DNA of 64,000 bases, from the NCBI RefSeq assembly GCF_902833045.1, contig NZ_CADFDU010000009.1, forward strand, positions 186,001-250,000, given 5' to 3'. The notes under the pieces are model-generated. The model had not been told where the DNA came from. It ran no database searches and saw nothing but the letters and a program-made list of their open reading frames with translations. Position 1 is the first letter of the stretch, and every line of letters starts with the position of its first letter. The DNA comes from Burkholderia sp. BCC0322. GTDB lineage: Bacteria; Pseudomonadota; Gammaproteobacteria; Burkholderiales; Burkholderiaceae. Of this stretch, positions 9,574 through 47,885 are shown piece by piece. A program made the translations under genes and the position numbers.

Positions 9574-9711
9574 GGATCGCCTCACGGGAGTGGACGGAGC
9601 AGTGAGTCGATTACAGCGCGGATGCGCGTGACGCGATTGATGGAAATCAGGGATTGTCGTATCGGTGCCGCGGTCGGGCGAGGTTTGCGCTCCGGCCGTT
9701 GCCGTGCCGGC

Positions 9712-15049: not shown

Positions 15050-15063
15050 TTGATCTGTATCAA
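15050..15063 (-). promoter_or_regulatory. FNR/ANR box (TTGATCTGTATCAA) before copy 1 of the DUF2964-like gene
   Basis: A perfect TTGAT-N4-ATCAA inverted repeat. A -10-like GATCAT on the minus strand (15028-15023) is centred 31 bases from the box. The same arrangement, with matching flanks, precedes the paralogous gene near 31580. Confidence 0.72.
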
Positions 15064-16238: not shown

Positions 16239-19049
16239 TCAGCGCTCCTGTTTGCGCAGCAGCACGGCGGTCACGACCAGGATGGCCGGCGCCGCCGCGA
16301 GCAGCGGCCAGAACTGCGACGACAGGTCGGCCAGGCCGAGTGCCTTGTTGAACACGCCGCGGCTGATCGCGAGCATGTAGGTGGCCGGGTAGACCGTGCC
16401 GATCCACTTGCCGGCGCCTTCCAGCGACGACAGCGGCGTGAGCAGCCCCGAGAACTGCACGACGGGAATCAGCGTGCCGACGATCGTCATGAAGATCGCG
16501 GCGATCTGGCTGCGGGTGAACGTCGACGCGAACAGCCCGATGCCCGTGGCCACCACGTTGAAGACCAGCACCGCGGCCGCGAGCGTGAAGAAACTGCCCT
16601 TGATCCGCACGCCGAACGCGACGTCGGCCAGCACGACCATCAGCAGGAAGTTCAGCATGGCCAGCATCACGTAGGGCGCCTGCTTGCCGAGCAGGAATTC
16701 GACCCGTGTGACGGGCGTCACGTACAGGTTGACGATCGATCCGAGCTCCCGTTCGCGGACGACGGCCAGCGCCGTCAGCATCGCGGGCAGCATCAGCAGC
16801 AGCATCGGCATGATGGCCGGAATCATCGCCGGCAGGCTCCTGACGTCCGGGTTGTAGCGATAGCGGACGGCGATCTCGACCGGCGGCGCGAGCGACGCGC
16901 CGAGCCTGCGCTTTGCCTGGTCGCGCAGCCAGTTCTCGTGCATGCCGGCGACATAGCCGCGGATCGTCTCCGCGCGCATCGGCATCGCGCCGTCGATCCA
17001 CGCGCCGATCTCGACGCGCCGGCCGTGCGCGACGTCGCGGGCGAAGCCGGGCGGAATCTCGATCGCGAGCGACAACTGGCCGTTGCGCATGCGCCGGTCG
17101 ATGTCGCGATCGTCCACGAGCGCGGCGCGCGGCACGAAGTAGCGGGAGCCGGCGAGGTTCTGCGCGTAGTCCTGGCTCAGGATCGACTGGTCGCGGTCGA
17201 GCACCGCGAACGTCAGGTTGTCGACGTCGAGGCTGATGCCGATGCTGATCACGCACATCAGTACGAGCGATCCGAACAGCGCCAGCGTCGCCCGCAGCGG
17301 GTCGCGCCGCAGCTCCAGCACTTCGCGCCAGAGATAACTGCCGGCGCGTGCGGGGCTGAACCATGCGGCCGCGCGGCCGGCGCCGGCACAGGCGTCGGCG
17401 TCGGCGTCGGCCGGTGTGCTCAGCCAGCCCGCGTCGGATGCCTCGTCGACCGGCGTGCTGTCCGCTTGCTGCGCATCGGTCAGGTACGCGATGAACGCCT
17501 CCTCGAGCGAGCCGGCGCCGCGCGTGCGCACGAGCTCCCCGGGGGCGGCGCTGGCGAGCACCCGGCCCGCGTGCATCAGCGAGACGCGATCGCAGCGCTC
17601 GGCTTCGTTCATGAAGTGCGTCGAGATGAAGATCGTGACGCGATCGTGCCGTGCCAGCTCGATCATCAGCCGCCAGAAATCGTCCCGCGCGACCGGGTCC
17701 ACGCCGGACGTCGGCTCGTCGAGGATCAGCAGCTCGGGCTTGTGCACCATCGCCACCGCGAGGGACAGCCGCTGCCGCACGCCGAGCGGCAGGCGTTCGG
17801 GCAGTGCGTCGAGCGCGCCGGCCAGCCCGAAGCGCTCGACCATTTCGGCGACCCGCCCCGGCACGTTCGCCTCCGGCACGCCGAACAGGCGCGCATGCAG
17901 CACGAGGTTCTGCCGCACGGTCAGCTCGCCGTACAGCGAAAAGCCTTGCGACATGTAGCCGACCCGCCGGCGCGTGTCGATGTCGTCGGCGGCGACCGGC
18001 TGGCCGAACAGCGTCGCCGTGCCTTCGGACGCGGGGAGCAGCCCGGTGAGCATCTTCATCGTCGTCGACTTGCCGCAGCCGTTGGAGCCGAGGAAGCCGA
18101 AGATCTCGCCGCGACGGATCTGCAGGCTGACGTGATCGACCGCGACGAAATCGCCGAAGCGCATCGTCAGCCCGTCGGCCTCGATCGCATAGCCGGCGGC
18201 GGCATCGGGCTGGAACGGCGCGATCCGGATCGGCTGGTGCCCGCGCCGCTGCGCGTCGGGGAGCAACGCGACGAACGCGTCCTCGAGCGTGCCGCAGCCG
18301 GTGCGGGCCAGCAGCGCGTCCGGGCTGCCGGTCGCCAGCACGCGCCCGGCGTCCATCGCGATCAGCTGGTCGAACCGCCGGGCCTCGTCCATGTACGCGG
18401 TGGCCACCAGCACGCTCATCGCCGGACGGGCGGCGCGAATGCGTGCGATCAGCTCCCAGAACTGGGCGCGCGACAGCGGATCGACGCCGGTCGTCGGTTC
18501 GTCGAGGATCAGCAGGTCCGGATCGTGGATCAGCGCGCAGCACAGGCCGAGCTTCTGCTTCATGCCGCCGGACAGTTTGCCGGCGGGCCGATCCAGGAAC
18601 GGGTGCAGGCCGGTGCTGTGCGTGAGCGCGTCGATGCGGCGCCGCCGCTCCGCCGCGTCATGGCCGAACAGCCGCGCGAAGAACTGCAGGTTTTCCTCGA
18701 CTGACAGCGTCGCGTACAGGTTCCGGCCCAGGCCCTGCGGCATGTAGGCGATGCGCCGGCAGACGCGCGCGCGATGACGGCGTGACGACAGGTCGCCGTC
18801 GAGCGTCCACACGCGCCCCTGCTGGATCGCGCGTGCGCCGGACACGAGCGCGAGCAGGCTCGATTTGCCGACGCCGTCCGGCCCGATCAGCCCGATCATG
18901 CGGCCGGCCGGGATGTCGAGCGTCACGTCGTCGAGCGCGGCCTTGTCGCCGTAGCGCAGCGAGACGCCGGTCAGCCGCGCGACCGGCGCGGGAACCGGCG
19001 GCCCTTCGGTCGCGCCTGCGGCGGTATCGGCCGGGAGCGTCGACTTCAT
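16239..19049 (-). CDS. Fused double ABC ATPase plus ABC-2 permease, RbbA/YhiH-like
   Basis: A 936-residue fusion. ATPase 1 covers about residues 25-260 (Walker [10 protein letters not shown], signature [11 protein letters not shown], Walker [14 protein letters not shown]). ATPase 2 covers about 285-510 (Walker [11 protein letters not shown], Walker [14 protein letters not shown], with an altered signature [14 protein letters not shown]). An ABC-2 permease covers about 570-936 ([21 protein letters not shown]-like block). E. coli RbbA/YhiH shares this order and was reported as ribosome-associated, but the genetic context here is export. Start MKSTLPADT overlaps the start region of the gene order by four bases with the adaptor stop. 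Confidence 0.88.
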
Positions 19050-20119
19050 TGGGGGACCTTGATCGCGAGGCGCGCGGGCCACGCGGCATTCGGATCGGCC
19101 TTCAGCCACGCGACACCGGGCAGCCCGGTCTTGACGAGCTTCAGATGGCGCTGCAGCAGGTCGCGGTCGATGCGTGCTTTCACCCGGAACATCAGCTTCT
19201 GCCGTTCGGTGGCCGTCTCGACCGTTTTCGGCGTGAACTGCGCGGTGCTCGACACGTACGACACGCGGGCCGGAATCACGTACTCCGGCGCTGCGTCGAG
19301 CACGATCCGCACGTCGGCGCCGAGCGGCACCCGGCCGACGACCGTCTCGGGCAGGAAGAAGGTCATGTAGACGTCCGACAGGTCGACCACGTTGAGCACC
19401 TTGCCGCCGGCCGGCAGCACCTCGCCCGATTCGGCCACGCGATACTGCACGCGCCCGTCGCGCGGCGATGTCAGGTCGCTATCCGAGATGTCGGCCTGCA
19501 CGCGCGCGACCGTCGCCTGCGCGGCCGTCACGGCGGAGTGCGCGGCGACGAGCTGGGCGCGGGTCGCGTCGATCGCGGCCTGCGCGGCCTGCACCTGCGC
19601 GCGCGCCGCATTCACGGTCGCCCGCAGGCTGCCGGCGCGGGCGCGGTCGTCGTCGAGTTCCTGCATCGACGATGCGCCGTCGCGCGACAGCGTCTCGGAG
19701 CGCGCGAGCCGCCGCGTCGCCGCATCCAGTTCGCTTTCCCGCTGGACGACGACGGCCTCGGCCGCCGCCTTGTCGCTGCGCCGCTGCGCGACCTGCGCGT
19801 CGATGCTCGCCGCCGTGTTCACCGCCTGCTCCTCGCGGGCGCGCGCTTCGTCGAGCTGCGCCTGCAGCACGACGACGTCCATGCGCGCGAGCGGCTGGCC
19901 GGCTTTCACGAAGTCGCCTTCGTCGACGAGCATCGCGGTGACCCGCCCCGGCAGCTTGGTCGCGACGTCGATCTCGGTCGCTTCGATGCGGCCGTTGCCG
20001 CTCACGAGGCCGGCATCGGCCTGTCCGTCATGCCAGCGCGTCCATCCGTAAAACGTGATGCCGATCGCGAGCACGGCGACGCCTGCCCCGATCAGAACAG
20101 GGCGCTTGAGGGTTTTCAT
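19046..20119 (-). CDS. HlyD/YhiI-like periplasmic adaptor
   Basis: A 357-residue membrane-fusion protein with an N-terminal anchor ([19 protein letters not shown]) and a split lipoyl domain (first half [20 protein letters not shown]; second half [23 protein letters not shown]). The coiled-coil is long and Ala/Gln/Arg-rich, about residues 90-225. It is the YhiI counterpart of the yhiI-rbbA-yhhJ-type exporter. It overlaps both neighbours by four bases, a sign of translational coupling in the operon. Confidence 0.88.
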
Positions 20120-21612
20120 CGTAGGGAGTCCGGATTCGTCGATTCGTTGGTCGGGGGCGCGGCGGCGGCATCGCTGTCGCGCGTGGCGCCGCCGAGCGCG
20201 CCATAGAGCGCGACGCGGCTCGACAGCAGCGCCCGGCGCGTCATCACCCATTGCTGTTCCGCGTTCATCAGGTCGCGCTGCGCGTCGAGCACCTCGAGGA
20301 ACCGGGTCGCGCCGCTGTCGTAGCGCAGCTTCGCGAGGCGGGCCCGTTCGGCCTGCGAATCCAGCGTGGCGCGCTCGATGCGCACCTCGTCGGCCAGCCA
20401 GTAACGGGACGCGAGCGCATCGGACACGTCGCGGAACGCACCCTGGATCGTCCGCTCGTACCGCGCGAGCGCTTCGTCGCGCTGCGCATGCGCCAGCGCG
20501 AGATTCGAGCGGTTGCGGCCGCCGTCGATCAGCGGCAGCGTCACGTTCGGGATCACCGACCAGACGCCGGTGCTGGATGTCAGGAGGTCGTGCAGCGCGC
20601 TGCTGCCCGAGCCGATCGAACTCGTCAGCGCGATGCGCGGAAAGAACGCGGCGCGTGCCGCGCCGATATTCGCGCGGGTCGCCTGCAGTTCGTGCTCGGC
20701 CGCGATCACGTCCGGCCGCCGCGCGAGCAGCGACGACGGCAGGCCGGGCGCGAGCGACGGCGCGACGGCGCCGTCGTCGAGCGCGAGCGGCGTGCCGGCC
20801 AGATCCGGCGGCGCGCCGACCAGCAGGGCCAGTGCATCGGCTGCCGACGCGCGTGCCTGCTGCAGCTGGGCACCGAGCGACTCCGCCTGCTGCAGCAGGA
20901 TCTCGGCTTGCGTCAGGTCGAGGCGGGAAATCGCGCCGGCCGCATGGCGAAGCCGGAAAATCCGCAGCGACTCGCGGCGCGTGTCGATCGTCGCGCGGGT
21001 CAGCGCGATGCGCTCGTCGTATTCGCACAGGGTCAGATACGCGTTGGCGACCGACGTGATCACGCTCAGCGTGGCGGCACGCCGGGACGCGTCGCTCGCG
21101 AGATAGCGCTGCAGCGCCGCGTCCTTCAGGTTGCGCACACGGCCCCAGAAATCGAGTTCCCATTGCGTCTCGGCCAGCTGGACATCGTAGACCTGGCCGA
21201 TGAACGGCGCCGGTGTCAGGAAGCCGCCCGGTGCGCGAAACCGCGCATAGGCCGCACCGGCGCCGATCGTCGGCCACTGGTCCGCGCGGCGGATGCCGTA
21301 GACGGCGCGCGCCTGTTCGACGCGGGCAACGGCCGCACGCAGGTCGCGATTGTTGGCCAGCGCCTGTGCGATCAGCGTGCGCAGGCGCGCATCGACGAAG
21401 TAGTCACGCCACGCAGGCACCGGTGCTGCCGCAGGCGCGTGGTCGGCTGCCGGATCCGGAAAGGCGGCGGGAATCGGCGCGGCCGGAGGTTCGTCACGCG
21501 GTGCGAGCGACAGACATCCGGAAAGCAGGCCGATACCCGTTGCGAGCGCAACTAAACGCACGTACCGGAAAGCTGCGATACGGAGGACGGAGGGAAGCGC
21601 GATGGCGCGCAT
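20116..21612 (-). CDS. Efflux outer-membrane lipoprotein, NodT/OprM family
   Basis: A 498-residue TolC-like outer-membrane factor with lipobox LSGC (lipidated Cys33). Family blocks are WRDYFVDARLRTLIAQALANN, QWELDFWGRVRNLKDAALQRYL and RRPDVIAAEHELQATRANIG. It is the first gene of the leftward exporter operon (outer-membrane factor, adaptor, fused ATPase, permease). An FNR-type box with a TATAAG -10 lies 96-109 bases before its start. A GAGG ribosome site precedes the ATG. Confidence 0.88.
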   Translation of the reverse strand: MRAIALPSVLRIAAFRYVRLVALATGIGLLSGCLSLAPRDEPPAAPIPAAFPDPAADHAPAAAPVPAWRDYFVDARLRTLIAQALANNRDLRAAVARVEQARAVYGIRRADQWPTIGAGAAYARFRAPGGFLTPAPFIGQVYDVQLAETQWELDFWGRVRNLKDAALQRYLASDASRRAATLSVITSVANAYLTLCEYDERIALTRATIDTRRESLRIFRLRHAAGAISRLDLTQAEILLQQAESLGAQLQQARASAADALALLVGAPPDLAGTPLALDDGAVAPSLAPGLPSSLLARRPDVIAAEHELQATRANIGAARAAFFPRIALTSSIGSGSSALHDLLTSSTGVWSVIPNVTLPLIDGGRNRSNLALAHAQRDEALARYERTIQGAFRDVSDALASRYWLADEVRIERATLDSQAERARLAKLRYDSGATRFLEVLDAQRDLMNAEQQWVMTRRALLSSRVALYGALGGATRDSDAAAAPPTNESTNPDSLR

Positions 21613-21707
21613 GGAATGCCTCGGCGAATACGGAAACGCGGGGTGGCGCCGCCTCGTGGCGTCGCCGCTTCGGGTTCACTTATATCCGACGAATGACGCT
21701 CCTACCC

Positions 21708-21721
21708 TTGATCTGCATCAC
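21708..21721 (-). promoter_or_regulatory. FNR/ANR-type box (TTGATCTGCATCAC) with -10 TATAAG
   Basis: This matches TTGAT-N4-ATCAA with one mismatch. On the minus strand TATAAG (21684-21679) is centred 33 bases from the box, the class II FNR arrangement. It would start transcription about 60 bases before the outer-membrane factor gene of the RbbA-type exporter. Confidence 0.65.
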
Positions 21722-21949
21722 TTGCGCGGGAATGCGTTTCGAGCGCCGCTTCGGTTGACAGGCTCGCCGGAACGCGCCCGGTCCCGCGGATTGCGCCGGG
21801 CGCCGGGAGCGGGCAAGCCGCGCGGCAACGGTGAGCGGGAGGCCGGATCGGCAAGCGTCCGGCCTTCATGAAAGCCGGACAATTCTCCCGATATCCGGAA
21901 GACTCCCCCGGCCCGCTTCTTGCGTGCGCGATCGCCGTCACGTATATAG

Positions 21950-21961
21950 TGTCAAGCGACA
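21950..21961. promoter_or_regulatory. TGTCAAGCGACA inverted repeat upstream of the ethylene-receptor-like kinase
   Basis: TGTC-N4-GACA lies 58 bases before the GTG start, just after an AT-rich TATATAGT. The identical 12-mer occurs again at 52161-52172 before the DUF3096 gene. It may be an operator shared by the two; the binding protein is unknown. Confidence 0.35.
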
Positions 21962-22019
21962 AATCGATGATGCTGGCCGACCCGAGCCCGGAGGGTTCCA
22001 ACAGGAAGGAGCATGGCGC

Positions 22020-24047
22020 GTGGAAACGATCGCTCAGTTCTTTGCGGCTTCAGGCTTTGTTCCCCATGGCTATTGTCTGCAGTGGTCGCCGGGGCTGATC
22101 TGGTCATACGTGGTTGCCGACGCCATCATCGCGCTGTCCTACTATTCGATACCCGTCGCGCTGGGGATATTCGCGCGCCGTCGCAAGGATCTGCCTTTCA
22201 GCTGGCTGTTCCTGATGTTCGCCGTATTCATCCTCGCCTGCGGCACTACCCATCTGATCTCGATTATCGACATCTGGCAGCCGGTGTACTGGCTGGACGC
22301 GAGCGTCAAGACCCTGACCGCAGCGGCATCGCTCGCCACGGCCATCGTGATATGGCCCTTGATGCCGAAAGCGCTCGCGCTGCCGAGCCCGATGCAGCTG
22401 GACCAGGCGAACCGGGACCTCGTCCGCGAGATCGCGGCACGCCAGGAAGCCGAGAATCAGTTGCGTGCGCTCACCCACGAGCTTGAGCACCGGGTCGCGA
22501 CGCGCACGGCCGAATTCGAAAGCGTCAACGATGCGCTGCGTCGCAAGATCGCCGAGCACGAACGCGCGGAGCTGGCGATACGGGACAGCCAGCAGCAGCT
22601 TCAGTCCATCGTGGACAATGCCGCCACGGTGATCAGCGTCAAGCAGGCGGATCGGCGCTATGCACTCGTGAACCGGCGCTTCGAGGACGTATTCCATGTC
22701 CGCCGTCAGGAGGCATTCGGCAAGACGGACGAACAGATCTTCCCGGCGGAGCGGGCGGCTGCCTATCGGCAGGCGGATGACCGGGTGCTGGCCGGCGAAG
22801 TGGTCGAGACCGAGGAAACCGTGCTCCTCGCGGAGCAGCCTCGAACGTTTCTGTCAGTCCGTTTTCCGATCCGGGATTCGGGCGGACGGATCGTGTCGAT
22901 CGGCGGCATTTCCACCGACATCAGCGAACGCAAGCGCGCGGAAGAACGCCTGCGGCTGGTCGTCGAGGCGTCGCCGAATGCGATGGTCATGGTGAACCGC
23001 GGCGGCCAGATCGTCCTGGTGAATTCGCAGACCGAGCGCGTCTTCGGCTACCCGCGCGACGAGCTGATCGGCCGAAGCATCGAGACGCTGGTGCCGGCCC
23101 GGTTCCGGGCCCAGCATCCGGACCATCGCGCGGCGTTCCTCGCCGCGCCAACGAGCCGCCCCATGGGCGCGGGCCGGCATCTTTCCGGGTTGCGCAGCGA
23201 CGGGACCGAATTGCCGGTCGAAATCGGGTTGAATCCGATCGAAACGGATGAAGGGATGTTCGTCCTGGCGGCCATCGTCGACATTACGGAGCGCAAGCGT
23301 GCGGAGGAAGCGCTGCGCGAGCGTACCGACGAGCTGGCCCGCTCCAATCGCGACCTGGAGCAGTTCGCGTACGTCGCGTCGCATGACCTGCAGGAACCCC
23401 TTCGAGCCGTCGCCGGGCCGTTGCAGTTGCTGCAGCGCCGCTACCAGGGGCAACTGGATGCGCGCGCGGACGAATACATCGGCCACGCCGTCGAAGGCGC
23501 CACCCGCATGCAGGCGTTGATCGAGGATCTTCTGACGTATTCGCGCGTGGGCCGGTCGGACAATCCGTTCCAGCCGATGGCGTGCGCGGCCGCGCTCGAC
23601 AGTGCGCTGAACAATCTTGCCGTGGCACTGGAAGAGGCCGGCGCCGACGTGCACCGGGGTTTCCTGCCGGCGGTGCAGGCCATTCCGTCGCAGCTCGCGC
23701 TGCTGTTTCAGAACCTGGTGGGCAATGCCGTCAAGTTCCGCCGCAAGGAGGCGCCGCTGCAGATCCGGATCGGTGCGGAGCCTTGTGCCGATGGATGGCT
23801 GTTCCGCGTCGAAGACAACGGAATCGGGATCGATGCCCAGTACTTCGAGCGCATCTTCCTGATCTTCCAGCGCCTGCATACGCGCCGCGATTATCCCGGC
23901 ACGGGGATCGGGCTCGCGTTGTGCAAGCGGATCGTGGAGCGTCACGGCGGCAGGATCTGGGTCGAATCCGAACCGGGGCGGGGAACGATCTTTTTCTTCA
24001 CGTTACCGCGCGCGGCAGCGACCGATCCGGACGCCGAAGTCGTTTAA
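22020..24047 (+). CDS. Ethylene-receptor-like sensor histidine kinase (ETR1-type sensor, two PAS, kinase)
   Basis: A 675-residue kinase. Residues about 1-115 hold three membrane helices matching the ethylene-binding domain of plant ETR1. Asp34, Tyr41, Ile44, Pro45, Ile71, Cys74 and His78 fall at the same spacing as ETR1 Asp25, Tyr32, Ile35, Pro36, Ile62, Cys65 and His69; the Cys-His pair holds copper(I) there. A coiled-coil and two PAS domains (about 190-305 and 315-430) follow. The phytochrome-type dimerisation domain has His455 ([13 protein letters not shown]), and the ATPase domain shows [16 protein letters not shown] and [12 protein letters not shown] use the GTG start because AAGGAG stands 9 bases before it. 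A two-gene signalling partner set follows directly. Ligand binding is inferred from residues, not shown. Confidence 0.85.
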
Positions 24048-24058
24048 GGAGAGAGCCA

Positions 24059-24511
24059 ATGCCAGTCGAACTGCTTGATGGTCTCGTCGATATCCTGCTC
24101 GTCGAAGACAGCCCCACCGACGTGATGATGACCCGCGAGGGGCTCGAATATTACAAGGTGCTCAACCCGCTCAAGGTCGTGGAAGACGGCGTGGCGGCGA
24201 TGGCGTATCTCCGCAGGGAAGGGCAGTATCGCGACGCGCGCCGGCCGGGACTCATCATCCTGGACCTGAATCTCCCGAGGAAGAGCGGACGTGAAGTCCT
24301 TCAGGAACTGAAGGACGACCCCGACCTGCGGAATATCCCCGTCGTCATCCTGACCACCTCGAAATCGGAAGAGGACGTGGTGAAGTCCTACGGCCTTCAC
24401 GCCAATTGCTACATCGCGAAGCCGGTCGATTTCGCGAAGTTTGCCGACGTCGTGCGCCGAATCAGCGATTTCTGGTTCGGTGTCGTCACGCTGCCGCCTG
24501 CCGGGCGATGA
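24059..24511 (+). CDS. Rcp1-type single-domain response regulator
   Basis: A 150-residue receiver-only protein. The acidic pair is Glu16-Asp17 and the phosphoacceptor Asp69 ([13 protein letters not shown]), with Thr in ILTTSKS and Lys in YIAKPVDF. The insertion after helix 2 and the NLPRKSG motif are typical of Rcp1-like regulators, which partner phytochrome-type kinases. It lies 11 bases after the ethylene-receptor-like kinase, so it is its probable phosphate acceptor. It has no output domain and must pass the signal on by protein contact or phosphotransfer. Its stop overlaps the start of the next gene. Confidence 0.88.
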
Positions 24512-25986
24512 ATACGCCGCTCAAGGAGGTCCGGATCCTGCTCGTCGAGGATAGCCCGACCGACACGTTCCTGATCCGCGAAGCGCTCGCCGAGGTGCAG
24601 GATTTCGTGTCCGTGCTGCTCCATGTCGAGCGCCTGTCGGAGGGCATGGATCACTTTCAGGCAGAACACGTCGACGTGGCGCTGCTCGACCTTGGTCTTC
24701 CGGATTCCCAGGGACTCGACACGTTCAGCAGGCTGCATGCGGCCAAGCCGGAGGTGCCGATCATCGTGCTGACCGGCCTGGACGATCTGTCGGCGGGCTT
24801 GCTGGCGATCCAGGAAGGCGCACAGGACTATCTGCTCAAGCGGGACATTCAACCGGCGTTGCTGGGCCGGGCGATTCGTTATGCGATCGAGCGGCATCAC
24901 GTGTCGGTGGCCCTGGCGGCCAGCGAGGAACGGTTTCAGCTGGCGGTGAGCGGTGCCGCAGCCGGCCTGTGGGACTGGAACCTGCTCACCGGCGCGATGT
25001 ATCTGTCGGCGCACTTCCACGAGATCATGGGATACGACGATCGCGAACTGCCGAATGACGCGCGCGCGCATCTCGACGCGATTCATCCCGACGACGCCGA
25101 CCGTGTGGCGTCGATCCTCGACCGGCATCTGGCGCATGAACGGTCCTACGACGTGGAATACCGGGTCCGCACCAAATCCGGCGAGTTCCGCTGGATCCAG
25201 TCCAGGGGCCAGGCGTTGTGGGACGGCACGGGTGCGCCCTACCGGATGGTCGGCTGGATCATGGACATTTCGGATCGCAGGCGCGCGGAGGAGCAGCTGC
25301 GCGACTCGCGCGAGGAGCTGAAGCGCCTGTCGGCCAGCATCCTGCGCGCGCGGGAAGAGGAGAAGGCGCGAATCGCCCGCGAACTGCACGACGACCTGGG
25401 GCAGCAGCTGACCGCGCTCAAAATGGTGACCGCGGTGCTCGAAAACACACTCAAGGGCGCGGAGGCGGGGTCGCCCGAGGCGATGGTCGGCAACCTGTAT
25501 TCGATGATCGACCAGATCGTCGTGTCGGTGCGGCGCATCGCCGCGGATTTGCGGCCGAGGATGCTCGACGATCTCGGACTGGTCCCGGCCGTCGACTGGC
25601 TGATCGCGGATTTCTCGTCGCGGTACGGCATGCGTGTCCTCAGGCGCATCGATGCGAACCAGATCGCTTTCAACCGCGAGAGCGCAACGGCCGTGTTCCG
25701 GATGGTGCAGGAGGCGCTGACGAACAGTGCGCGGCATTCGGGGGCGACCGAGGTCACGATCGGCATCCGGCGGGACGAGCCGCACTGCATCGTGACGATC
25801 GAGGACAACGGCCTCGGCGCCGACAGCGACGTGCGTCCCGGGTTGAAGTCGTTTGGCTTGCTCGGCATGAGAGAGCGCGCCGAACGCCTGGGCGGTGAAC
25901 TGCGGATCGAGACGGCGCCCGGCCATGGCTTCGCGGTGACGATCGTGATGCCGCTGGCCACGGTCGAGGCCGACGAACCCGACTGA
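24508..25986 (+). CDS. Receiver-PAS-HisKA_3 hybrid histidine kinase (NarX-like kinase core)
   Basis: A 492-residue soluble protein with an unusual order. Receiver: 1-125, phosphoacceptor Asp61 ([12 protein letters not shown]). PAS/PAC: about 140-265 ([18 protein letters not shown] ... [15 protein letters not shown]). NarX/DesK-class kinase: about 275-490, His294 in [12 protein letters not shown] and ATP-binding DNGLGA and [14 protein letters not shown]. The receiver comes first, so it probably senses the upstream kinase through phosphorylation. It would then phosphorylate a LuxR-type regulator; none is encoded nearby. The gene overlaps the Rcp1-type regulator by four bases (ATGA). There are no membrane helices. 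Confidence 0.88.
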
Positions 25987-26359
25987 GCGCAATTGCCGGC
26001 CCGCCCGATTCGACCTGGATGACGTCTGCGCGCTCCCCGGCCCCATCCGGGTTGCGGTGATTCTTCTGCGCCTCACCCGTCTGCATGCTTCCCCGGCCCC
26101 CCGACCCGCACCGTTGACCTGAATCAAGCAGGGTACGGTGGTTCGGCATCTACCATGGTCAAGGTCGGTCAGGCGCCGGAACGCACGGCCTCGCCGACGC
26201 GCTTCATCGCCGGTTCCGGCTTTCTTCGCGAATCGACGAACCTCAAATAGACAGTCATCCGAATTTTATATTTCACCAACCAGAGACCGGCTCATGGTTG
26301 CCGTCTGTCATGCGGCCCGTCGCATGAGCGGGAGAAGTCAACGTGTGTGGAGAACTGAC
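25987..26359 (+). promoter_or_regulatory. Promoter region of the arc operon
   Basis: 373 bases without a gene. They contain an FNR-type box at 26114-26127, a TACCAT hexamer at 26151-26156 centred 33 bases from it, and a long leader of about 200 bases before arcD. An AT-rich patch (ATTTTATATTTCACC) at about 26265-26280 is unusual for this DNA and could be a second promoter or an argR/IHF-type site. Confidence 0.5.
26114..26127 (+). promoter_or_regulatory. FNR/ANR box (TTGACCTGAATCAA) of the arc operon
   Basis: It matches TTGAY-N4-RTCAA on both halves. Anaerobic activation of arcDABC by ANR is well established in Pseudomonas aeruginosa, so the site fits the downstream genes. The class II -10 spacing is present. 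Confidence 0.7.
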
Positions 26360-27859
26360 ATGAGTCAACCTGTCGTGGAGAGACCTTCAGCCGAGGGCGA
26401 CCGGACGTCGTCCGTGCCGAAGGCGGCCGGCGGCCCCGATACACGCAAGCTCGGTTTGCTGCTGCTGAGCGGCATCGTCGTCGGCTCGATGATCGGCGGC
26501 GGGGCGTTCAACCTTCCGCAGAACATGGCCGCGGGCGCCGGCCTCGGCGCCATCGCGATCGCATGGATCATCACGCTCGTCGGCATGTTCTTTCTGGCAA
26601 ACGCGTTCCGCACGCTGGCGGACCAGCGCCCCGAACTCACCGCGGGCATCTACTCGTATGCACGAGAAGGCTTCGGCAAGTTCGCGGGTTTCGAGATGGC
26701 CTGGGGATACTGGCTCAGCTCCGCGTTCGGCAACGTCGCGTTCGCGGTGCTGATCATGCAGACGCTCGGCTATTTTTTCCCCGCGTTCGACGGCAGGAAC
26801 TGGCAGTCGATCGCGGGCGGATCGGTGCTGATCTGGGCCTTGCACTTCATGGTGCTTTCCGGCGTGAAGCGCGCGGCGATCCTCAACACGATCACGAGCG
26901 TGGTCAATGTCGTGACGCTGTCCGTCGCCATTGTCGTCATGGCGCTGTTTTTCCAGAAGGGACATTTCTCGTTCGATGTGTGGGGACAGCAGCAGCATCT
27001 CGGGGGCACGCTGGCACAGGTCAAGAGCACGATGCTGGTCACGCTCTGGGTGTTCATCGGCATCGAGGGCGCCGTCGTCGTGTCCGACCGGGCGCGCGAT
27101 CAGCACGCGGTGGGCACCGCGACGTTCATCGGGCTCGCGGTCTGCACGACGCTCTATTTCCTGCTTTCCGCGCTGCCGTTCGGCGTGATGTCCCAGCATC
27201 AGCTGGCAGGCCTGCAGAATCCGTCCACGGCCTATGTCATCGAGCAGCTCGTCGGGCACTGGGGGGCGGTCTTCGTCGTCGTCGCGCTGCTGTTCTCGGT
27301 GCTGAGCTGCTGGCTGGCGTGGACGGTCCTCGTTGCCGAGTTGCCGTATGCGGCCGCCAAGGACAACATTTTTCCGCGCTTCCTGTCGCACGAGAATCGC
27401 CATCATGCGGCTGCGCCGTCGCTGTGGATTTCGAGTGCCGTGATGCAGGTCATGATGTTCGTCGTGCTGTTTGCGCACGACGCGTGGATGTGGCTCATCA
27501 GCGTGGCCGGCGTGATGATCCTGCCGCCGTATCTCGCGAGCACCGGCTTCCTGTGGAAATGCGCGACGCAGCGGAGCTTCCAGGAGCATGCGGGCGAGGG
27601 CAAGCGCGCGTCGATATGGACCGGCGTTCTGGGCACCGCCTACGCGGCATGGCTGCTCTACGCGGCCGGTCCTACCTACCTGCTGATGTCGACGATCTTC
27701 TTCGTGATCGGCATCCCCGTGTTCTGGTATGCGCAGCGCGAGAAGAATCCGGACTCACCCGCTTTTACCGGACTCGAGCGCACGGCCGCTGTCGTCTTGC
27801 TCGCCGTCGCGGTGACTGCATGCGTGCTGTTTGCGAAGGGTGTCGTGTCGATCGGTTGA
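26360..27859 (+). CDS. arcD: Arginine/ornithine antiporter
   Basis: A 499-residue APC-superfamily transporter with about 12-13 membrane helices. It starts with the family motif [21 protein letters not shown] near residue 33 and contains the conserved [18 protein letters not shown] loop. ArcD brings arginine in and ornithine out at no energy cost, feeding the arginine deiminase pathway encoded next. A GGAG ribosome site precedes the ATG. The gene opens an arcD-arcA-arcB-arcC operon under an FNR-type box. Confidence 0.93.
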
Positions 27860-27902
27860 CGGGTATCGAATACGCAATCGACAGGGCCGATGACGAACAG
27901 GC

Positions 27903-27922
27903 CACGCCATCGCGGTGGCGTG
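27903..27922 (+). other. Intercistronic hairpin between arcD and arcA
   Basis: CACGCCA and TGGCGTG form a seven-pair stem with a six-base loop in the 101-base arcD-arcA gap. It has no T tract, so it is more likely an mRNA processing or stability element than a terminator. Differential arcA over arcD expression is a known feature of such operons. Confidence 0.45.
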
Positions 27923-27960
27923 TCCGCACAAAACTGCTACGGAACTTCGGGAAACCGATC

Positions 27961-29184
27961 ATGACTCTTGGCGTTCATTCCGAGGCCGGCAAACTGCGAA
28001 CCGTGATGGTTTGCGCGCCTGGCCTCGCCCATCGCCGGCTGACGCCGGCCAACTGCGGAACCTTGCTCTTCGACGACGTGATCTGGGTCGACAAGGCCAT
28101 CGAGGATCATCAGGCGTTCGTGCGCGTGCTGCGCGAACGGGACGTGGAGGTGCTGGAGTTTCAGCATCTGCTGGCTGAAGTCTGCCTCGATACCGGCGCG
28201 CGCGACTGGATACTCGATCGCCGCATCACGGAGGAGGAAGTCGGTACGGGCATGCTTCGCGAACTGCGGCTATGGCTCGAATCGATGCCGGCGCAGCGGC
28301 TCGCCGAGGTGCTGATCGGCGGCGTCGCGAAATCGGAACTGCCGTTCGATGCACGCGGTTTGTTCGGCGGATATCTGGAGCGATCGGACTTCGTGATTCC
28401 GCCGCTCGTGAACCTGATTTTTCAACGCGACCCGAGTGCATGGATCTACGGCGGGGTGACGTTGCATCCGATGTTCTGGCCCGCGCGCCGGAAAGAAACA
28501 CTGCTGCTCGCGGCTGTCTACGCGTTTCATCCTCGCTTCGCGGGCAAGGTCAGAACGTGGTGGGGCGACCCCGACGTCGATCACGGCGCGCAGACGCTCG
28601 AAGGCGGCGACGTGATGGCCATCGGCAACGGCGTCGTGCTGATCGGCATGGGCGAGCGATCGAGCCCGCAAGCCGTCACGCAGGTCGCCCGCGCACTGTT
28701 CGCCGGCAACGGTGCGAAGCGCGTGATTGCATGCCAGTTTCCGAAGTCGCGCGCGTCGATGCATCTCGACACGGTCTTTTCGTTCCTCGACGTCGATTTC
28801 GTCAGCATTTATCCGGACGTGGCCGACGAGATCCGCTGCACGAGCCTGTATGCCGGAGACGTGCTCGGGCAGATTCGCTACGAGCGTCATGACGAGAAGT
28901 TCCTGCAGGTCGTGGCGAGTGCGCTCGGTGTCGGCTCGCTGCGCGTGCTGACGACGGGCGGGGACCGCTACGAAAGCGAGCGCGAGCAATGGGACGACGG
29001 CAACAACGTGCTCGCGCTCGACCGCCGCGTCGTGCTCGCGTACGACCGCAACACCCACACGAACCGCAAGATGCGCCAGGCCGGTGTCGAGGTGATCGAG
29101 CTGCCGGGCGGCGAGCTCGGCCGCGGCCGCGGCGGCAGTCATTGCCTGAGCTGCCCGGTCGCGCGCGATCCGGTCGCGCTCTGA
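27961..29184 (+). CDS. arcA: Arginine deiminase
   Basis: A 407-residue arginine deiminase (arginine + water to citrulline + ammonia), the first step of the energy-yielding ADI pathway. Visible blocks are [23 protein letters not shown]-type substrate loop near 160, LEGGDVM near 215, the [11 protein letters not shown] block with the catalytic His near 264, and the C-terminal [13 protein letters not shown] with the nucleophilic Cys about 395. The length is normal. It lies between arcD and the ornithine carbamoyltransferase gene in the same orientation. Confidence 0.95.
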
Positions 29185-29226
29185 ACCGCGCCAATCCATG
29201 CTGACCTCGAGAGAAGAAAACTCATC

Positions 29227-30228
29227 ATGTTCAACGTACGCAACCGCAGCTATCTGACGCTGATGGACTACACGCCGCGCCAGATTCGTTACCTGCTCGA
29301 CCTGTCGCGCGACCTCAAGCGCGCGAAATACGCGGGCACCGAGGTGCCGCGCCTGACCGGCAGGAACATCGCCCTGATCTTCGAGAAGACCTCGACCCGC
29401 ACGCGATGCGCGTTCGAGGTTGCCGCCCATGACCAGGGCGCGCACGTCACCTACATCGATCCGACGGGGTCGCAGATCGGTCATAAGGAATCGATGAAGG
29501 ACACGGCCCGCGTGCTCGGCCGGATGTACGACGCGATCGAGTATCGCGGTTTCGGCCAGGAGATCGTCGAGGAACTCGCGCAGTACGCCGGCGTACCCGT
29601 GTACAACGGGCTGACCGACGAATTCCATCCGACCCAGATGCTGGCCGACGTGCTGACCATGCACGAACACAGCGACAAGCCGCTGCACGAAATCGCGTTT
29701 TGCTACATCGGCGACGCGCACAACAATACGGGCAACTCGCTGATGATCGTCGGTGCGAAGCTCGGCATGGACGTTCGCCTGTGCGCACCGCGGCATCTCT
29801 GGCCACACGACGAACTGATCGCGCAATGCCGGGACATCGCCGCGAAGACGGGCGCGCGGCTCATGCTGACCGAACAGCCCGGCGAAGCGGTGAAGGGCGT
29901 GGATTTCATCTACACGGACGTGTGGGTCTCGATGGGAGAACCGGAGGCGCGATGGGGCGAGCGCATCGGTACGTTGCTGCCCTATCAGGTGAACGCGAAA
30001 CTGCTGTCGGAAACCGGCAACCCGCGCGTGAAATTCATGCATTGCCTGCCGGCATTTCACGACGCGCATACGGTGGTGGGCAAGCAGATTGCCGATCACT
30101 ACGGGCTGACCGATGGCGTCGAGGTCACCGACGAGGTATTCGAGTCCGACGCGTCCGTCGTTTTCGAGCAGGCCGAGAACCGGCTGCATACGATCAAGGC
30201 GGTGCTGGTTGCCACGCTGGCCGGCTAG
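29227..30228 (+). CDS. arcB: Catabolic ornithine carbamoyltransferase
   Basis: A 333-residue OTCase. It has the carbamoyl-phosphate loop [14 protein letters not shown] near residue 53, the HPTQ motif ([11 protein letters not shown]) and the ornithine-site HCLPAFHD. Its place between arcA and arcC, and the pathway, indicate the catabolic direction: phosphorolysis of citrulline to ornithine and carbamoyl phosphate. It would be called argF only if anabolic; the operon argues for arcB. A GAGAGAA ribosome site precedes the ATG. Confidence 0.95.
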
Positions 30229-30241
30229 GGGAGGACAGGCG

Positions 30242-31189
30242 ATGCGTATCGTGGTCGCACTTGGCGGCAATGCACTGCTGCGGCGCGGGGAGGCGATGAG
30301 CGCCGTCGCGCAGCTGCAGAACGTGAGACTGGCCGCGGCACAGCTGGCGGGCATCGCGCACGGGAACGAACTGGTGATCGTGCACGGCAACGGCCCGCAG
30401 GTCGGGTTGCTCGCGACACTTTCACGGCAGGCGCCGCCTGCCGAACGCTTTCCGCTCGATGTGCTCGACGCCGAGACCGAAGGCATGATCGGCTACCTGA
30501 TCGAACTGGAACTGCGCAACCGGCTGCCGGCGTCGCGCCCTTGCGCGACGCTCCTGACGATGGTCGAGGTGAGCGCCGCGGATCCTGCGCTCCGGCATCC
30601 CGACAAACCAGTCGGTCCGGTCCTCACGCGGGCAGCGGCGACCGAGATGGTCCGCACCAACGGCTGGGAGATCGTCGCGGACGGCGACGGGTACCGGCGC
30701 GTCGTGCCGAGCCCGCGGCCGCTGCGGTTTCTGGAAATCGAGCCGGTACGGGCGCTGCTCGCCAGTCGCGCGATCGTGATTTGCGCGGGAGGAGGCGGCA
30801 TTCCCGTGGTCGAAGCGGAGGGCGGCCGGCACCATGGGATCGAGGCGGTGGTCGACAAGGATCGCAGCGCGGCGCTCCTCGCCCGTGAACTCGATGCGGA
30901 CCTGTTCGTGATCGCCACCGACGTGGCAGGTGTGTACCTCGACTGGGGCACTGCCGACGCACGGCTGGTTCGCCGCACGTCGCCGGAGGCGCTCGCCGGG
31001 CAGGCTTTCGCAGCGGGCTCCATGGGACCGAAAGTCGAGGCCGCCGGTGACTTCGCTCGAACGTCGGGCCGGCGCGCGACCATCGGTTCGCTCGCGGATA
31101 TCGCACGCCTCGTCGACGACACTGCCGGCACCTCGGTGCTGGTCGGGCAGGATTGCGCGTTCGACGGGACGACGGATCCGGCACGGTGA
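30242..31189 (+). CDS. arcC: Carbamate kinase
   Basis: A 315-residue carbamate kinase of the amino-acid-kinase fold: N-terminal RIVVALGGNALLRRGE, the HGNGPQVG loop near residue 45, ICAGGGGIPVVEAEGG, the YLDWGT segment and the GSMGPKVEAAGDF motif at the end. It transfers phosphate from carbamoyl phosphate to ADP, giving the ATP of the arginine deiminase route. It starts 13 bases after arcB behind a GGGGAGGA ribosome site and closes the operon. Confidence 0.95.
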   Translation: MRIVVALGGNALLRRGEAMSAVAQLQNVRLAAAQLAGIAHGNELVIVHGNGPQVGLLATLSRQAPPAERFPLDVLDAETEGMIGYLIELELRNRLPASRPCATLLTMVEVSAADPALRHPDKPVGPVLTRAAATEMVRTNGWEIVADGDGYRRVVPSPRPLRFLEIEPVRALLASRAIVICAGGGGIPVVEAEGGRHHGIEAVVDKDRSAALLARELDADLFVIATDVAGVYLDWGTADARLVRRTSPEALAGQAFAAGSMGPKVEAAGDFARTSGRRATIGSLADIARLVDDTAGTSVLVGQDCAFDGTTDPAR

Positions 31190-31277
31190 CGGCGCGCCGT
31201 CGCCGGCGTACGGCATGAACGGCGGCTGCACGCGGCCGCTCGTTACGTCAGGTTCGAAGGCAACGGCGCCGCACGCG

Positions 31278-31466
31278 TTACGGGCGATCGCCCGGGGCGA
31301 GATTCAGCAGGACGACGAACGAGAGGATGCTCATGATCAGCGTGAGGATCGAGTACCTGAACACGCGTTCGTCGAACAGCAGCCCGTGAATGATGCCGGC
31401 CAGCGACGCGAGCGCGATGAACACGCTGAGCGTCGCGAGCGCGATTCGATACTGCTTTCGGTTCAT
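31278..31466 (-). CDS. Two-helix small membrane protein, DUF2964-like (copy 2)
   Basis: A 62-residue paralogue of the protein at 14740-14928, of identical length, with helices IALATLSVFIALASLAGIIH and YSILTLIMSILSFVVLL. It is convergent to arcC and divergent from the BON-domain gene. The promoter carries a perfect FNR-type box with the same flanks and -10 as copy 1. Function unknown; I infer induction under oxygen limitation. Confidence 0.65.
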   Translation of the reverse strand: MNRKQYRIALATLSVFIALASLAGIIHGLLFDERVFRYSILTLIMSILSFVVLLNLAPGDRP

Positions 31467-31578
31467 GACGATCTCCCGGGAAGCGGCTGGCGCCGGCTGC
31501 CATACGGATGCGAAGCGCCGGGTCGTGGCGGATTTCGCAGGGGCTGGCGTCATGATCGCGTCCCGCTCCGTCGCACGG

Positions 31579-31592
31579 TTGATCTGCATCAA
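31579..31592 (-). promoter_or_regulatory. FNR/ANR box (TTGATCTGCATCAA) before copy 2 of the DUF2964-like gene
   Basis: A perfect inverted repeat with a minus-strand GATCAT at 31557-31552, centred 31 bases away. The segment GGCGTCATGATCGCGT and GCACGGTTGATCTG are shared with the copy 1 promoter. Confidence 0.75.
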
Positions 31593-31646
31593 CGGAAAAA
31601 ACGGCCTGAACGTGCCCGTCGGCGGCTGCCCCAGGCACGCCGTTGC

Positions 31647-31660
31647 TTGATCCTCGTCAA
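31647..31660 (+). promoter_or_regulatory. FNR/ANR-type box (TTGATCCTCGTCAA) before the BON-domain gene
   Basis: Both half-sites fit TTGAY-N4-RTCAA. It lies 95 bases before the BON-domain start; a weak GATGCT at 31682-31687 has the right spacing for a -10. Confidence 0.6.
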
Positions 31661-31754
31661 GCCGCCGGCGCCGCCTTGCGCGATGCTGGATCCGGTGCGG
31701 CCCGTCACCGATCGCAAGTGTCGCGATCGACACGCGGGCCGACGGGAGACCGAC

Positions 31755-32402
31755 ATGAAGTCCGATGCAGCACTCAAGCAGGATGTCGAGCAGGCGCTGT
31801 TCTGGAATCCGGCGATCGATGCGCGCCGGATCGACGTCGACGTACGCGACCGGATCGTGACGCTGCGCGGCACGGTCGATAGCTGGGCGCAGAAACTCGA
31901 GGCGCAGAAAACGGCGCTGCATGTCGCGGATGCGCGCGCGCTGGTGCTCGAAGTGAACGTCACGCCACCGGAGAACGCGTGCGCGGATCAGGAGCTGGCG
32001 ATCGCGATCACGTTCGCGCTCGGCTGGCAGGAGGCGCTGCGCGATCACAAGATTCGCGTCGAGGTCGACCATGGCTGCGTGACGCTCGACGGCGAAGTGG
32101 ATCACGCGTTCCAGAGCCGTGCGGCGGAAGCAATGGTGAGCCGGATGATCGGCGTCGTCGGCGTCGCGAATCGCATCCGCGTGCGCGCCGACCATACGGT
32201 GCCGGACGTCGGTACCCGGATCGCCGAAGCGCTCGCGCGGCGCGCGCAGCGCGAATCCGCGGGGATCTCGATCGCCGCCGACGACGGCATCGTCACGTTG
32301 ACGGGCACGGTCGCGTCGCTCGCCGAACGGCGTGCCGCTTGCGGCGCGGCCGCATCGGTCAGGGGCGTGCGCGAGGTCGTCGACCGGCTGACCGTTGCCT
32401 GA
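31755..32402 (+). CDS. Triple BON-domain protein
   Basis: A 215-residue protein made of three BON domains (about 5-70, 78-145, 148-215). Each has the hydrophobic core and the IVTLRGTVDSW, CVTLDGEVDHAF or IVTLTGTVASL strand-turn. BON domains bind phospholipid or peptidoglycan and occur in osmotic and stress proteins such as OsmY. No signal peptide is visible, so this one is probably cytoplasmic or membrane-associated. The upstream frame that continues to 30930 is antisense noise. It is followed 43 bases later by an accessory ftsH, so both may form an envelope-stress operon. Confidence 0.85.
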   Translation: MKSDAALKQDVEQALFWNPAIDARRIDVDVRDRIVTLRGTVDSWAQKLEAQKTALHVADARALVLEVNVTPPENACADQELAIAITFALGWQEALRDHKIRVEVDHGCVTLDGEVDHAFQSRAAEAMVSRMIGVVGVANRIRVRADHTVPDVGTRIAEALARRAQRESAGISIAADDGIVTLTGTVASLAERRAACGAAASVRGVREVVDRLTVA

Positions 32403-32445
32403 CGTTGCATGAGCGGGCCCGCGCCCGCCGTGCCGGATCGACGCC

Positions 32446-34359
32446 ATGAAAAAATCATTCGATTACTCCGGTCTGCTGATTCCGTTCGTGTTTGCCGTGC
32501 TGGTGGCGTATCAGCTGCTGATGGCCCAGCCGGCAACGACGTCGATTTCGTACAGCGACTTTCACCGGCTGGTCGACGCGCGGCTCGTCGACGATCTCGA
32601 CGTCGGCCAGTCGTCGATCTCGGGCACGCTGCGCATGCCGGAAGCCGGCGCGGCGCTGCCGGCCTCCGACGCGGCCGCCGTGAAGAAGGCGGGGCCGCCG
32701 TGGCGCTTCACGACCAACCGGGTGGCCGACGATCGTCTCGTCAGCGACCTCACGGCCGCCGGCATCCGCTATCGCGGCGCGCCGGATTCGGGCTGGCTCG
32801 AAACGCTTGCCGGGTGGCTATTGCCGGTGATCGTCCTCGTGATGCTGTGGAGCTTCATGATGCGCAGGCCGGGCGGGGTCCGGGACTTGAGCGGCATGGG
32901 CAAAAGCCGGGCGCGCGTGTACGTGCAGCAGGAAACCGGCATCACGTTCGACGATATCGCGGGCATCGACGAAGCGAAGGCCGAGCTGCAGCAGATCGTC
33001 GCGTTCCTGCGCAACCCCGAGCGCTACCAGCGGCTCGGCGGCAAGATCCCGAAAGGCGTGCTGATCGTCGGCGCGCCCGGCACCGGCAAGACGCTGCTCG
33101 CGCGCGCGGTGGCCGGCGAGGCGGCCGTGCCGTTCTTCACGATCAGCGGCTCGGCGTTCGTCGAGATGTTCGTCGGCGTCGGCGCGGCCCGCGTGCGCGA
33201 CCTGTTCGAGCAGGCGCAGCAGAAGGCGCCGTGCATCGTGTTCATCGACGAGCTCGATGCGCTCGGCAAGGCGCGCGGCGTCGGTGTGATGTCCGGCAAC
33301 GACGAGCGCGAGCAGACGCTCAACCAGCTGCTCGTCGAGATGGACGGCTTCCAGGCCAATTCGGGCGTGATCATCATGGCTGCGACCAACCGGCCCGAGA
33401 TCCTCGATCCCGCGCTGCTGCGGCCCGGGCGCTTCGACCGCCACATCGCGATCGACCGGCCCGACGTGAATGGCCGGCGGCAGATCCTCGGCGTGCACGT
33501 CAAGCACGTGAAGCTCGCGGCCGACGTCGATCTCGGCGAACTCGCGCAGCGCACGCCGGGCTTCGTCGGCGCGGATCTCGCGAACGTCGTCAACGAGGCC
33601 GCGCTGCATGCGGCCGAACTCGGCAAGCCGGCGATCGGCATGGCCGACTTCGACGAGGCGATCGATCGCGCGATGACGGGCATGGAGCGCAAGAGCCGCG
33701 TGATGAACGACGAGGAAAAGCGGACCATCGCGTACCACGAAGCGGGGCACGCGCTCGTCGCGCAAAGCCGCGTGCATTGCGATCCGGTGAAGAAGGTGTC
33801 GATCATCCCGCGCGGCATCGCGGCGCTCGGCTATACGCAGCAGGTGCCGACCGAGGATCGCTACGTGCTGCGCAAGAGCGAGCTGCTCGAGCGGCTCGAC
33901 GTGCTGCTCGGCGGCCGGGTGGCCGAGGAAATCGCGTTCGGCGACGTGTCGACCGGCGCACAGAACGATCTGGAACGGGCGACCGCGCTGGCGCGTCACA
34001 TGGTCATGCAGTACGGGATGAGCGCGAAGCTCGGCCTGGCGACGCTCGACGACGCGACGGCGCAGGGCGGTTCGCCCGGCGTGTGGACGCCGGGCGACGG
34101 CCGGTGCAGCGAACACACCGCACGGTTGATCGACGAGGAAGTGCGCGCGTTGCTCGAAGCGGCGCACGAGCGGGTCGCGGCGACGCTCGGCGCGCATCGC
34201 GACGCGCTTGAGCGGATCGCGCTGTGCCTGCTGCAGCACGAGTCGATCGATCACGACACGCTGGTGGCGCTCATCGCGCCGCCGGACGATGGCGGCGATA
34301 AGCGCGGGCCTGCGCGCGCCGATGCGGAGCCGGCGACGGCCACGGACGCGCCGGCCTGA
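32446..34359 (+). CDS. Accessory FtsH-type ATP-dependent zinc metalloprotease
   Basis: A 637-residue membrane-bound AAA+ protease. It has two N-terminal helices flanking a periplasmic domain, Walker A GAPGTGKT at about 209, Walker [13 protein letters not shown], the second region of homology [18 protein letters not shown] and the zinc site HEAGH at 431-435. It degrades unassembled membrane proteins and selected regulators. It is somewhat divergent from housekeeping FtsH (for example [19 protein letters not shown], and an extended Asp/Ala-rich tail) and lies in a low-oxygen gene set. That suggests a second, stress-specific copy. The essential ftsH is expected elsewhere. Confidence 0.92.
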
Positions 34360-34382
34360 CCGGCTGCCGTCGATCGGGCCGC

Positions 34383-36206: not shown

Positions 36207-36231
36207 TGTAAGAGCCTCCCCGTCCGCTTCG

Positions 36232-36245
36232 TTGATCGAGCGCAA
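36232..36245. promoter_or_regulatory. Weak FNR-like site (TTGATCGAGCGCAA)
   Basis: One half-site is perfect (TTGAT); the other reads CGCAA instead of ATCAA. It lies 25 bases before the RNR start codon and may be coincidental. Confidence 0.2.
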
Positions 36246-36267
36246 CCCGGCGCTGTTGCGGCATGGC

Positions 36268-36281
36268 TTGACGGTCGTCAA
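36268..36281. promoter_or_regulatory. FNR/ANR-type box (TTGACGGTCGTCAA) between RNR and the sugar kinase
   Basis: A perfect TTGAC-N4-GTCAA inverted repeat in a divergent promoter, 62 bases before the RNR start and 74 before the kinase start. A TAAGGT at 36303-36308 has near-class-II spacing for the rightward gene. Confidence 0.6.
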
Positions 36282-45204: not shown

Positions 45205-45354
45205 ATCCTGACAGAAAGATCATACGGAATGCACCAAGTTCGTGCCGCGAATCACCGCGAAGAGGCACGAAAAAGCCCCGTTATTAGGGGATTTCCCGCG
45301 TTTACCCGGTTTTTTTTGATCAACGCTTGTCGCTCCGTTTTTCTTCTTGCATGC

Positions 45355-45366
45355 TTGTATAGACAA
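45355..45366. promoter_or_regulatory. GntR/HutC-like operator TTGTATAGACAA
   Basis: Contains GTATAGAC, the exact core recognised by many HutC-subfamily GntR regulators, in a near-palindrome, 57 bases before the transporter start. It overlaps a possible -10 (TATAGA). Confidence 0.55.
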
Positions 45367-45423
45367 ATTCCTGAGGCTTGCATGACCGAGGGGATGACGA
45401 ACTTCAACGCAAGGAGAAATCTC

Positions 45424-47099: not shown

Positions 47100-47111
47100 C
47101 GGAGCGCGCCC

Positions 47112-47858: not shown

Positions 47859-47885
47859 CCGCGTCCTTCCATCCAGGAGAATTCG

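Follow-up and report, generated by a model that had tools for sequence, protein, structure and literature searches.

Sequence comparison confirmed that the product of positions 22020 to 24047 of the window (the whole 64,000-nucleotide stretch of Burkholderia sp. BCC0322 DNA analyzed here) carries a true ethylene-receptor-type sensor domain on a histidine kinase. On balance, we favor the view that this protein is an ethylene receptor whose signal enters a branched phosphorelay and thereby adjusts survival at low oxygen. This kind of receptor is already known, and it is rare in Burkholderia; what looks new is its wiring to two relay proteins and its low-oxygen gene neighborhood. The receptor and its partners are encoded as follows (positions in the window, strand, feature).

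22020–24047, + strand: ethylene-receptor-like histidine kinase of 675 amino acids with a GTG start, comprising ETR1_N, two PAS domains, HisKA (His455) and HATPase_c
22020–22385, + strand: three-helix ethylene-binding-type domain (residues 1–122) with Asp34, Tyr41, Ile44, Pro45, Ile71, Cys74, His78 and Lys97
24059–24511, + strand: lone receiver domain, i.e., a response regulator without an output domain (Asp69, read from the sequence)
24508–25986, + strand: receiver-PAS-HisKA_3-HATPase_c kinase (Asp61, His294), here called the REC-kinase, whose start overlaps the stop of the receiver gene (ATGA)

The kinase frame is open on the + strand from 22020 to 24047, and GGAAGGAG, a good ribosome binding site, sits 8 nt upstream of the GTG; both the start codon and this site are also present in Burkholderia sp. 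BCC1644 (G001) and in G061. Residues 26 to 121 match the Pfam model ETR1_N with an E value of 2.7e-37 (127.4 bits versus a cut-off of 27), and the model gave matches in none of 14 control genomes. The output half is that of an ethylene-receptor histidine kinase, with both HisKA and HATPase_c present and His455 in place. The original prediction had claimed an N-terminal three-helix domain carrying seven ligand residues of ETR1. All seven (Asp34, Tyr41, Ile44, Pro45, Ile71, Cys74 and His78) are indeed present, and they align without gaps with Asp35, Tyr42, Ile45, Pro46, Ile72, Cys75 and His79 of AzoEtr1, each shifted by one position. The predicted structure of the sensor likewise has three long helices, at residues 24–54, 61–86 and 90–120 (mean pLDDT 81.9, pTM 0.62); within each helix, the ligand residues share one face of the helical wheel. 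A sequence search for a homologue of the sensor domain with a solved structure found none, and a fold search of the PDB gave no match under an E value of 0.001.

As for the numbering in ETR1, we take Tyr41, Ile44, Pro45 and Ile71 of the window protein to be the counterparts of Tyr32, Ile35, Pro36 and Ile62. The available text of PMC11819568 equates Asp25, Cys65, His69 and Lys91 of ETR1 with Asp35, Cys75, His79 and Lys98 of AzoEtr1. In an alignment of 68 sensor sequences (the window plus 67 loci; four phylum-sample sequences over the cut-off, namely G933:C233, G950, G1059 and a fragment from G1039, as well as below-cut-off and class-sample matches, stand outside it), all seven residues occur together in 44 sequences. 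Cys74 is present in all 68, His78 in 65 and Asp34 in 57. A PHGxCxxW motif ahead of the first helix (window positions 22062–22085, residues 15–22) is kept in 63 of the 68 sequences, and its His and Cys could bind a further metal or join the two halves of a dimer.

According to the part of the review PMC13012798 available to us, changing a membrane-domain aspartate to asparagine cuts the affinity about 100-fold, and this aspartate is presumably the counterpart of Asp34. As the window receptor has Asp34, the high-affinity form would be expected for it. Nine relatives carry Asn at position 34, and none of these has Lys at position 97 (4 Arg, 4 Asp, 1 Glu), whereas Lys97 is kept in 51 of the 57 sequences with Asp34 (Fisher p 2.7e-7, a value that ignores kinship, the independent pairs being too few). 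Judged by these substitutions, the Asn34 relatives without Lys97 may be a low-affinity subclass. Two loci, L130 (G996) and L131 (G981), have DFTAVCR as their seven residues, the histidine ligand being replaced by Arg; these are perhaps receptors for another signal. The sensor domains of two others, L008 and L012, are nearly alike, and the metagenome contigs that carry them bear the labels Obscuribacterales and Chloroflexi, one of which is perhaps wrong.

Considering its residues, the window receptor very probably binds ethylene. It is improbable that the sensor instead uses its Cu(I) site to read something else, such as the supply of copper, the redox state or a different small gas encountered at low oxygen. 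Such sites do bind other ligands, a redox or gas cue would suit the low-oxygen setting described below, and L130 and L131, which lack the histidine ligand, indicate that the fold can be of use with an incomplete site. Against this, the window protein keeps all seven ethylene-binding residues, Asp34 included, and both bacterial proteins for which binding data are named in the available text of PMC11819568 bind ethylene.

ETR1_N matches over the cut-off were found in 3 of 65 Burkholderia genomes (genus sample), 7 of 398 genomes of the family sample, 25 of 399 of the order sample, 6 of 185 of the class sample and 28 of 398 of the phylum sample; these samples overlap. Bacterial receptors were reportedly surveyed by Lacey and Binder in 2016. 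The original prediction had placed such domains in cyanobacteria and scattered bacteria. Their occurrence in bacteria was correct, but the spread was understated, given the 28 phylum-sample genomes and the ethylene binding by the Azospirillum protein reported in the available text of PMC11819568. No Burkholderia ethylene receptor is named in the titles and abstract openings listed by searches of the ethylene literature, an earlier mention (e.g., in a bacterial survey) being possible, and the word Burkholderia is absent from the text of PMC11819568. Bacterial ethylene receptors are known, yet the processes they control have been worked out for very few species.

The window is collinear with BCC1644 (locus L001) at 91–92% identity and with G061 at 87–90%. 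B. stagnalis shares parts with the window at 78–85%, namely the efflux, FtsH and reductase parts, in a different order, and a domain search of a collection containing B. stagnalis gave no Burkholderia record among the matches listed. For these two reasons, B. stagnalis does not provide a clean empty site.

The two genes downstream of the kinase had been proposed as its likely relay. The phospho-acceptors of such a relay are present: His455 in the kinase, Asp69 in the receiver (by reading), and Asp61 and His294 in the REC-kinase. A sensor kinase, a receiver-only protein and a REC-kinase are encoded together, as in branched relays of the Nmp type. This triad, with an ETR1_N-PAS-PAS-HisKA kinase, is unbroken in the window and in all four relatives of the same type (BCC1644, G061, Paraburkholderia sacchari (G003) and G293; 71–95% identical). 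The relay operon was found to encode no regulator that has an output domain, and a scan of the proteins encoded from 20116 to 36281, ornithine carbamoyltransferase apart, gave no NtrC-type output regulator. The conservation of the triad, together with the pairing of the same relay with a CHASE3 sensor (see below), agrees with the proposal, and the two partner proteins probably relay the signal of the receptor. It might be argued that the relay is a passenger of an island that is mobile or shuffled and has little function of its own, as its presence is patchy (the 3 of 65 Burkholderia genomes noted above) and two kinase types occur within the family. We regard this as very improbable, since the three genes are intact and together in all five genomes, with their phospho-acceptor residues in place.

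A relay of a PAS-HisKA kinase, a receiver and a REC-PAS-HisKA_3 kinase, but with a CHASE3 sensor, was found in five genomes: Burkholderia G019, G020 and G039, and G165 and G002 (Trinickia). The CHASE3 domain was assigned by Pfam in G020, G165 and G002, and by similarity to those three along the CHASE3 part in G019 and G039. The three genes are as in the window; their receivers are 78–84% and their REC-kinases 61–65% identical to those of the window, and the kinase cores of the three CHASE3 kinases measured are 72–74% identical. The difference lies in the sensor half, where CHASE3 replaces the ethylene domain and the first PAS domain is dissimilar. When the window kinase was compared with the CHASE3 kinases of G020, G165 and G002, identity was 15–22% over residues 1–122 and 22–32% over residues 196–306 (first PAS), and it then rose to 65–66% over residues 307–430 (second PAS) and 86–87% over residues 431–510 (HisKA).

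A kinase-core tree was built from those 43 of 73 input rows whose aligned length sufficed. In it, the window type and the CHASE3 type form one group with support 100/97, and a topology that unites every ethylene-domain kinase in a single clade is rejected (p-AU 9e-40). Both this grouping and the jump in identity are predicted by replacement of the sensor on an existing relay. As seen in these alignments and trees, the ethylene domain and CHASE3 replace each other on one relay, and we infer that the ethylene domain is the newcomer. Searching the genus sample for the REC-kinase at E ≤ 1e-120 returned 5 of 65 genomes with one copy each, two of them with the ethylene domain and three with CHASE3. 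The two relays are a natural matched pair, differing mainly in the sensor half.

The eight Burkholderiaceae sensor domains fall on one side of a branch in a 68-row tree (93/76), and they ride two kinds of kinases, a PAS-HisKA_3 fusion (G020, G165 and Trinickia G002) versus PAS-PAS-HisKA. An argument from this fusion was weakened by the finding that the fused PAS-HisKA_3 kinases of these three genomes are 44–50% identical to the product of the third relay gene of the window, which has closer relatives, at 62–68%, in those very genomes; the fused kinase ranks second of 6 such relatives in G020 and fourth of 23 in both G165 and G002. In Trinickia G002, the frame of the ethylene-domain kinase (L002:7914-9323) stops after HisKA_3, without HATPase_c, and one TGA lies inside the match; this is possibly a broken gene.

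The relay operon lies in the following surroundings (FNR-like boxes are given without strand).

9637–9650: FNR-like box, 1 mismatch
15050–15063: FNR-like box, exact
16239–21612, − strand: divergent efflux genes, encoding an ABC transporter fused to a permease, an HlyD-type adaptor and an outer-membrane efflux protein
21708–21721: FNR-like box, 1 mismatch, the nearest one to the kinase start (299 nt ahead of it) and closer to the divergent efflux operon (upstream by about 96 nt)
26114–26127: FNR-like box, 1 mismatch, separating the relay operon from the permease/arcABC genes
26138–27859, + strand: amino-acid permease (true start probably further in)
27928–29184, + strand: arginine deiminase
29227–30228, + strand: ornithine carbamoyltransferase (name from the annotated plasmid match H37)
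30242–31189, + strand: carbamate kinase, AA_kinase family (start by reading)
31579–31592: FNR-like box, exact
31647–31660: FNR-like box, 1 mismatch
31653–32402, + strand: three-BON-domain protein (approximate start)
32446–34359, + strand: FtsH-type protease
34383–36281, − strand: ribonucleotide reductase large-chain family (Pfam)

The window had also been said to hold an island of FNR boxes. Taking TTGAT-N4-ATCAA as the box and allowing up to one mismatch, we counted 6 boxes versus 0.45 expected, and none of 100 shuffles reached 6. The boxes recur at matching places in relatives, 6 of 6 in G061 and 3 of the 3 that fall inside the stretch of L001, so that the island holds up. An excess of boxes near anaerobic genes, the mark of an FNR/Anr cluster, is thus present in the window, although FNR boxes beside genes do not prove control of those genes. 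Whole-genome lists of exact boxes were evaluated for G001, G061, G003 and G020, so that the comparison extends to neither G165 nor G002. Exact boxes within 50 kb of the receptor make up 5 of 15 in G001, 6 of 17 in G061 and 5 of 11 in P. sacchari (G003), and the box density at the receptor is reached in just 0.57%, 0.32% and 0.48% of these genomes, respectively. Because the island of the window is also that of G001 and G061, these amount, together with G003, to two lines of evidence. Of the 7 exact boxes in the G020 genome, none falls within 50 kb of its receptor; G293 has no exact box on its receptor contig, which is 10.6 kb only, and three one-mismatch boxes there. Taken together, six stretches of the family hold 13 boxes (up to one mismatch) versus 1.4 in shuffles.

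The idea that receptors in general lie among FNR boxes was rejected. The order and phylum samples gave 56 boxes in 51 loci versus a shuffle expectation of 24.4, an excess over shuffles alone; in the 29 genomes of these samples for which control stretches were compared, there were 37 boxes in 616 kb of receptor neighborhood versus 43 in 796 kb of control. As these neighborhoods equal the controls, such receptors are not linked to oxygen in general. This result, along with the G020 copy outside any FNR cluster, would suit an ordinary plant-association receptor of the AzoEtr1 kind that binds ethylene and regulates biofilm formation, attachment or the storage of carbon close to roots, the low-oxygen placement being incidental. 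AzoEtr1 has an equal domain with equal residues, and it affects biofilm and poly-hydroxybutyrate (PHB) according to the available text of PMC11819568. Nevertheless, in two separate contexts, the island shared by the window, G001 and G061 and that of P. sacchari, the receptor is found among the densest FNR-box stretches of the genome, and we consider the plant-association explanation possible but rather unlikely. The original prediction had suggested that ethylene is perhaps a plant-environment cue; the neighborhood in the window points to low oxygen at least as much as to plants.

The flanks of the relatives are as follows. In P. sacchari, the receptor is flanked by genes for acetate kinase, PHB synthase, PHB depolymerase and a BON protein; in G293, by part of a PHB depolymerase gene and HSP20; and in the Trinickia relatives, the gene immediately upstream encodes a phosphotransacetylase. 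A Crp/Fnr-type regulator is encoded about 25 kb (G061) and about 33 kb (G003) from the receptor, with cysteines in the arrangement CxxCx5C plus a further Cys, which we take to be an FNR-like pattern. In G061, Crp/Fnr-type and receiver-LuxR regulators (L139:15888-18438) adjoin a universal-stress-like protein (by reading) and sit to the left of the stretch matching the window; this receiver-LuxR regulator is a candidate for the output of the relay. Away from the relay operon, positions 45229–50178 of the window carry amino-acid ABC transporter genes and then an aromatic amino acid lyase gene. A common neighborhood beyond the Burkholderiaceae group was sought and rejected, as only 9 of 60 further loci match non-signalling proteins of the window. 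These are ABC-ATPase or efflux matches with the exception of L099 (G707), where a ribonucleotide reductase near position 11037 is 44% identical to that of the window over 607 aligned residues.

How might the system work? By analogy with proven relatives, Cys74 and His78 of the three-helix domain would hold a Cu(I) to which ethylene binds, and the bound ethylene would alter the activity of the receptor kinase. Judging by the architecture, the kinase would phosphorylate both the lone receiver (24059–24511) and the receiver of the REC-PAS-HisKA_3 kinase (24508–25986). In other receptors, ethylene lowers kinase activity; if it does so here, the third protein would be released, the sign of this effect being a guess. 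The relay would then drive a LuxR-type response regulator encoded elsewhere; a branched relay of this design is described for Nmp of Myxococcus. Ethylene, a gas trapped on flooding, would in this way tune low-oxygen survival, the role suggested because the operon lies among FNR boxes and anaerobic-survival genes. Taken by itself, a role of the receptor in low-oxygen adjustment is plausible and just short of probable. More speculatively, ethylene might serve some Burkholderiaceae as an advance notice of flooding, on which they ready an anaerobic-survival program before oxygen ends, the ethylene domain having been grafted onto the CHASE3 relay. If true, this would link the survival of bacteria without oxygen, and their carbon storage, to a gas that is a hormone in plants. 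The operon gives a clear hypothesis, namely that ethylene announces anoxia, and P. sacchari offers a test host, as its triad lies inside an FNR-box cluster with PHB genes.

Among known systems, AzoEtr1/AzoRR of Azospirillum brasilense, as described in the available text of PMC11819568, shares with the window the ethylene-binding domain with the seven residues and the lysine, a PAS domain, a kinase and an adjoining receiver. The first 130 residues of AzoEtr1, produced as a GST fusion in Pichia, show saturable 14C-ethylene binding in yeast, and ethylene raises PHB granules in Azospirillum (PMC11819568, same text). The window kinase is about 50% identical to AzoEtr1 over residues 4–138; AzoEtr1 differs in having one PAS domain and a kinase part that is 29% identical, and its surroundings (12.4 kb) hold no match to the receiver or the REC-HisKA_3 kinase of the window at an E value of 1e-5. 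SynEtr1 of Synechocystis, named in the same text, is likewise a bacterial ethylene receptor with phosphotransfer to a response regulator but senses light too and has different partners. The lxa locus of B. cenocepacia (PMC6127331 and PMC9104464, as available to us) is another Burkholderia low-oxygen cluster with a BON protein; it carries six universal stress proteins, whereas none of 38 scanned translations of the window matches Usp, the island extending past the window.

Another known system is the NmpRSTU relay of Myxococcus xanthus, compared by architecture from the available text of PMC11841059, in which a sensor kinase acts on both a receiver-only protein and a REC-kinase. There, the REC-kinase is switched off when the sensor kinase phosphorylates its receiver, and the relay governs an oxygen-use regulon. 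Unlike the window, it has a globin oxygen sensor (in a relative), the double-receiver protein NmpT and an NtrC-type output. In plants, ethylene brings about pre-adaptation to hypoxia, as stated in the part of PMC6728379 available to us, and the proposed flooding warning might, though this is doubtful, be its bacterial counterpart.
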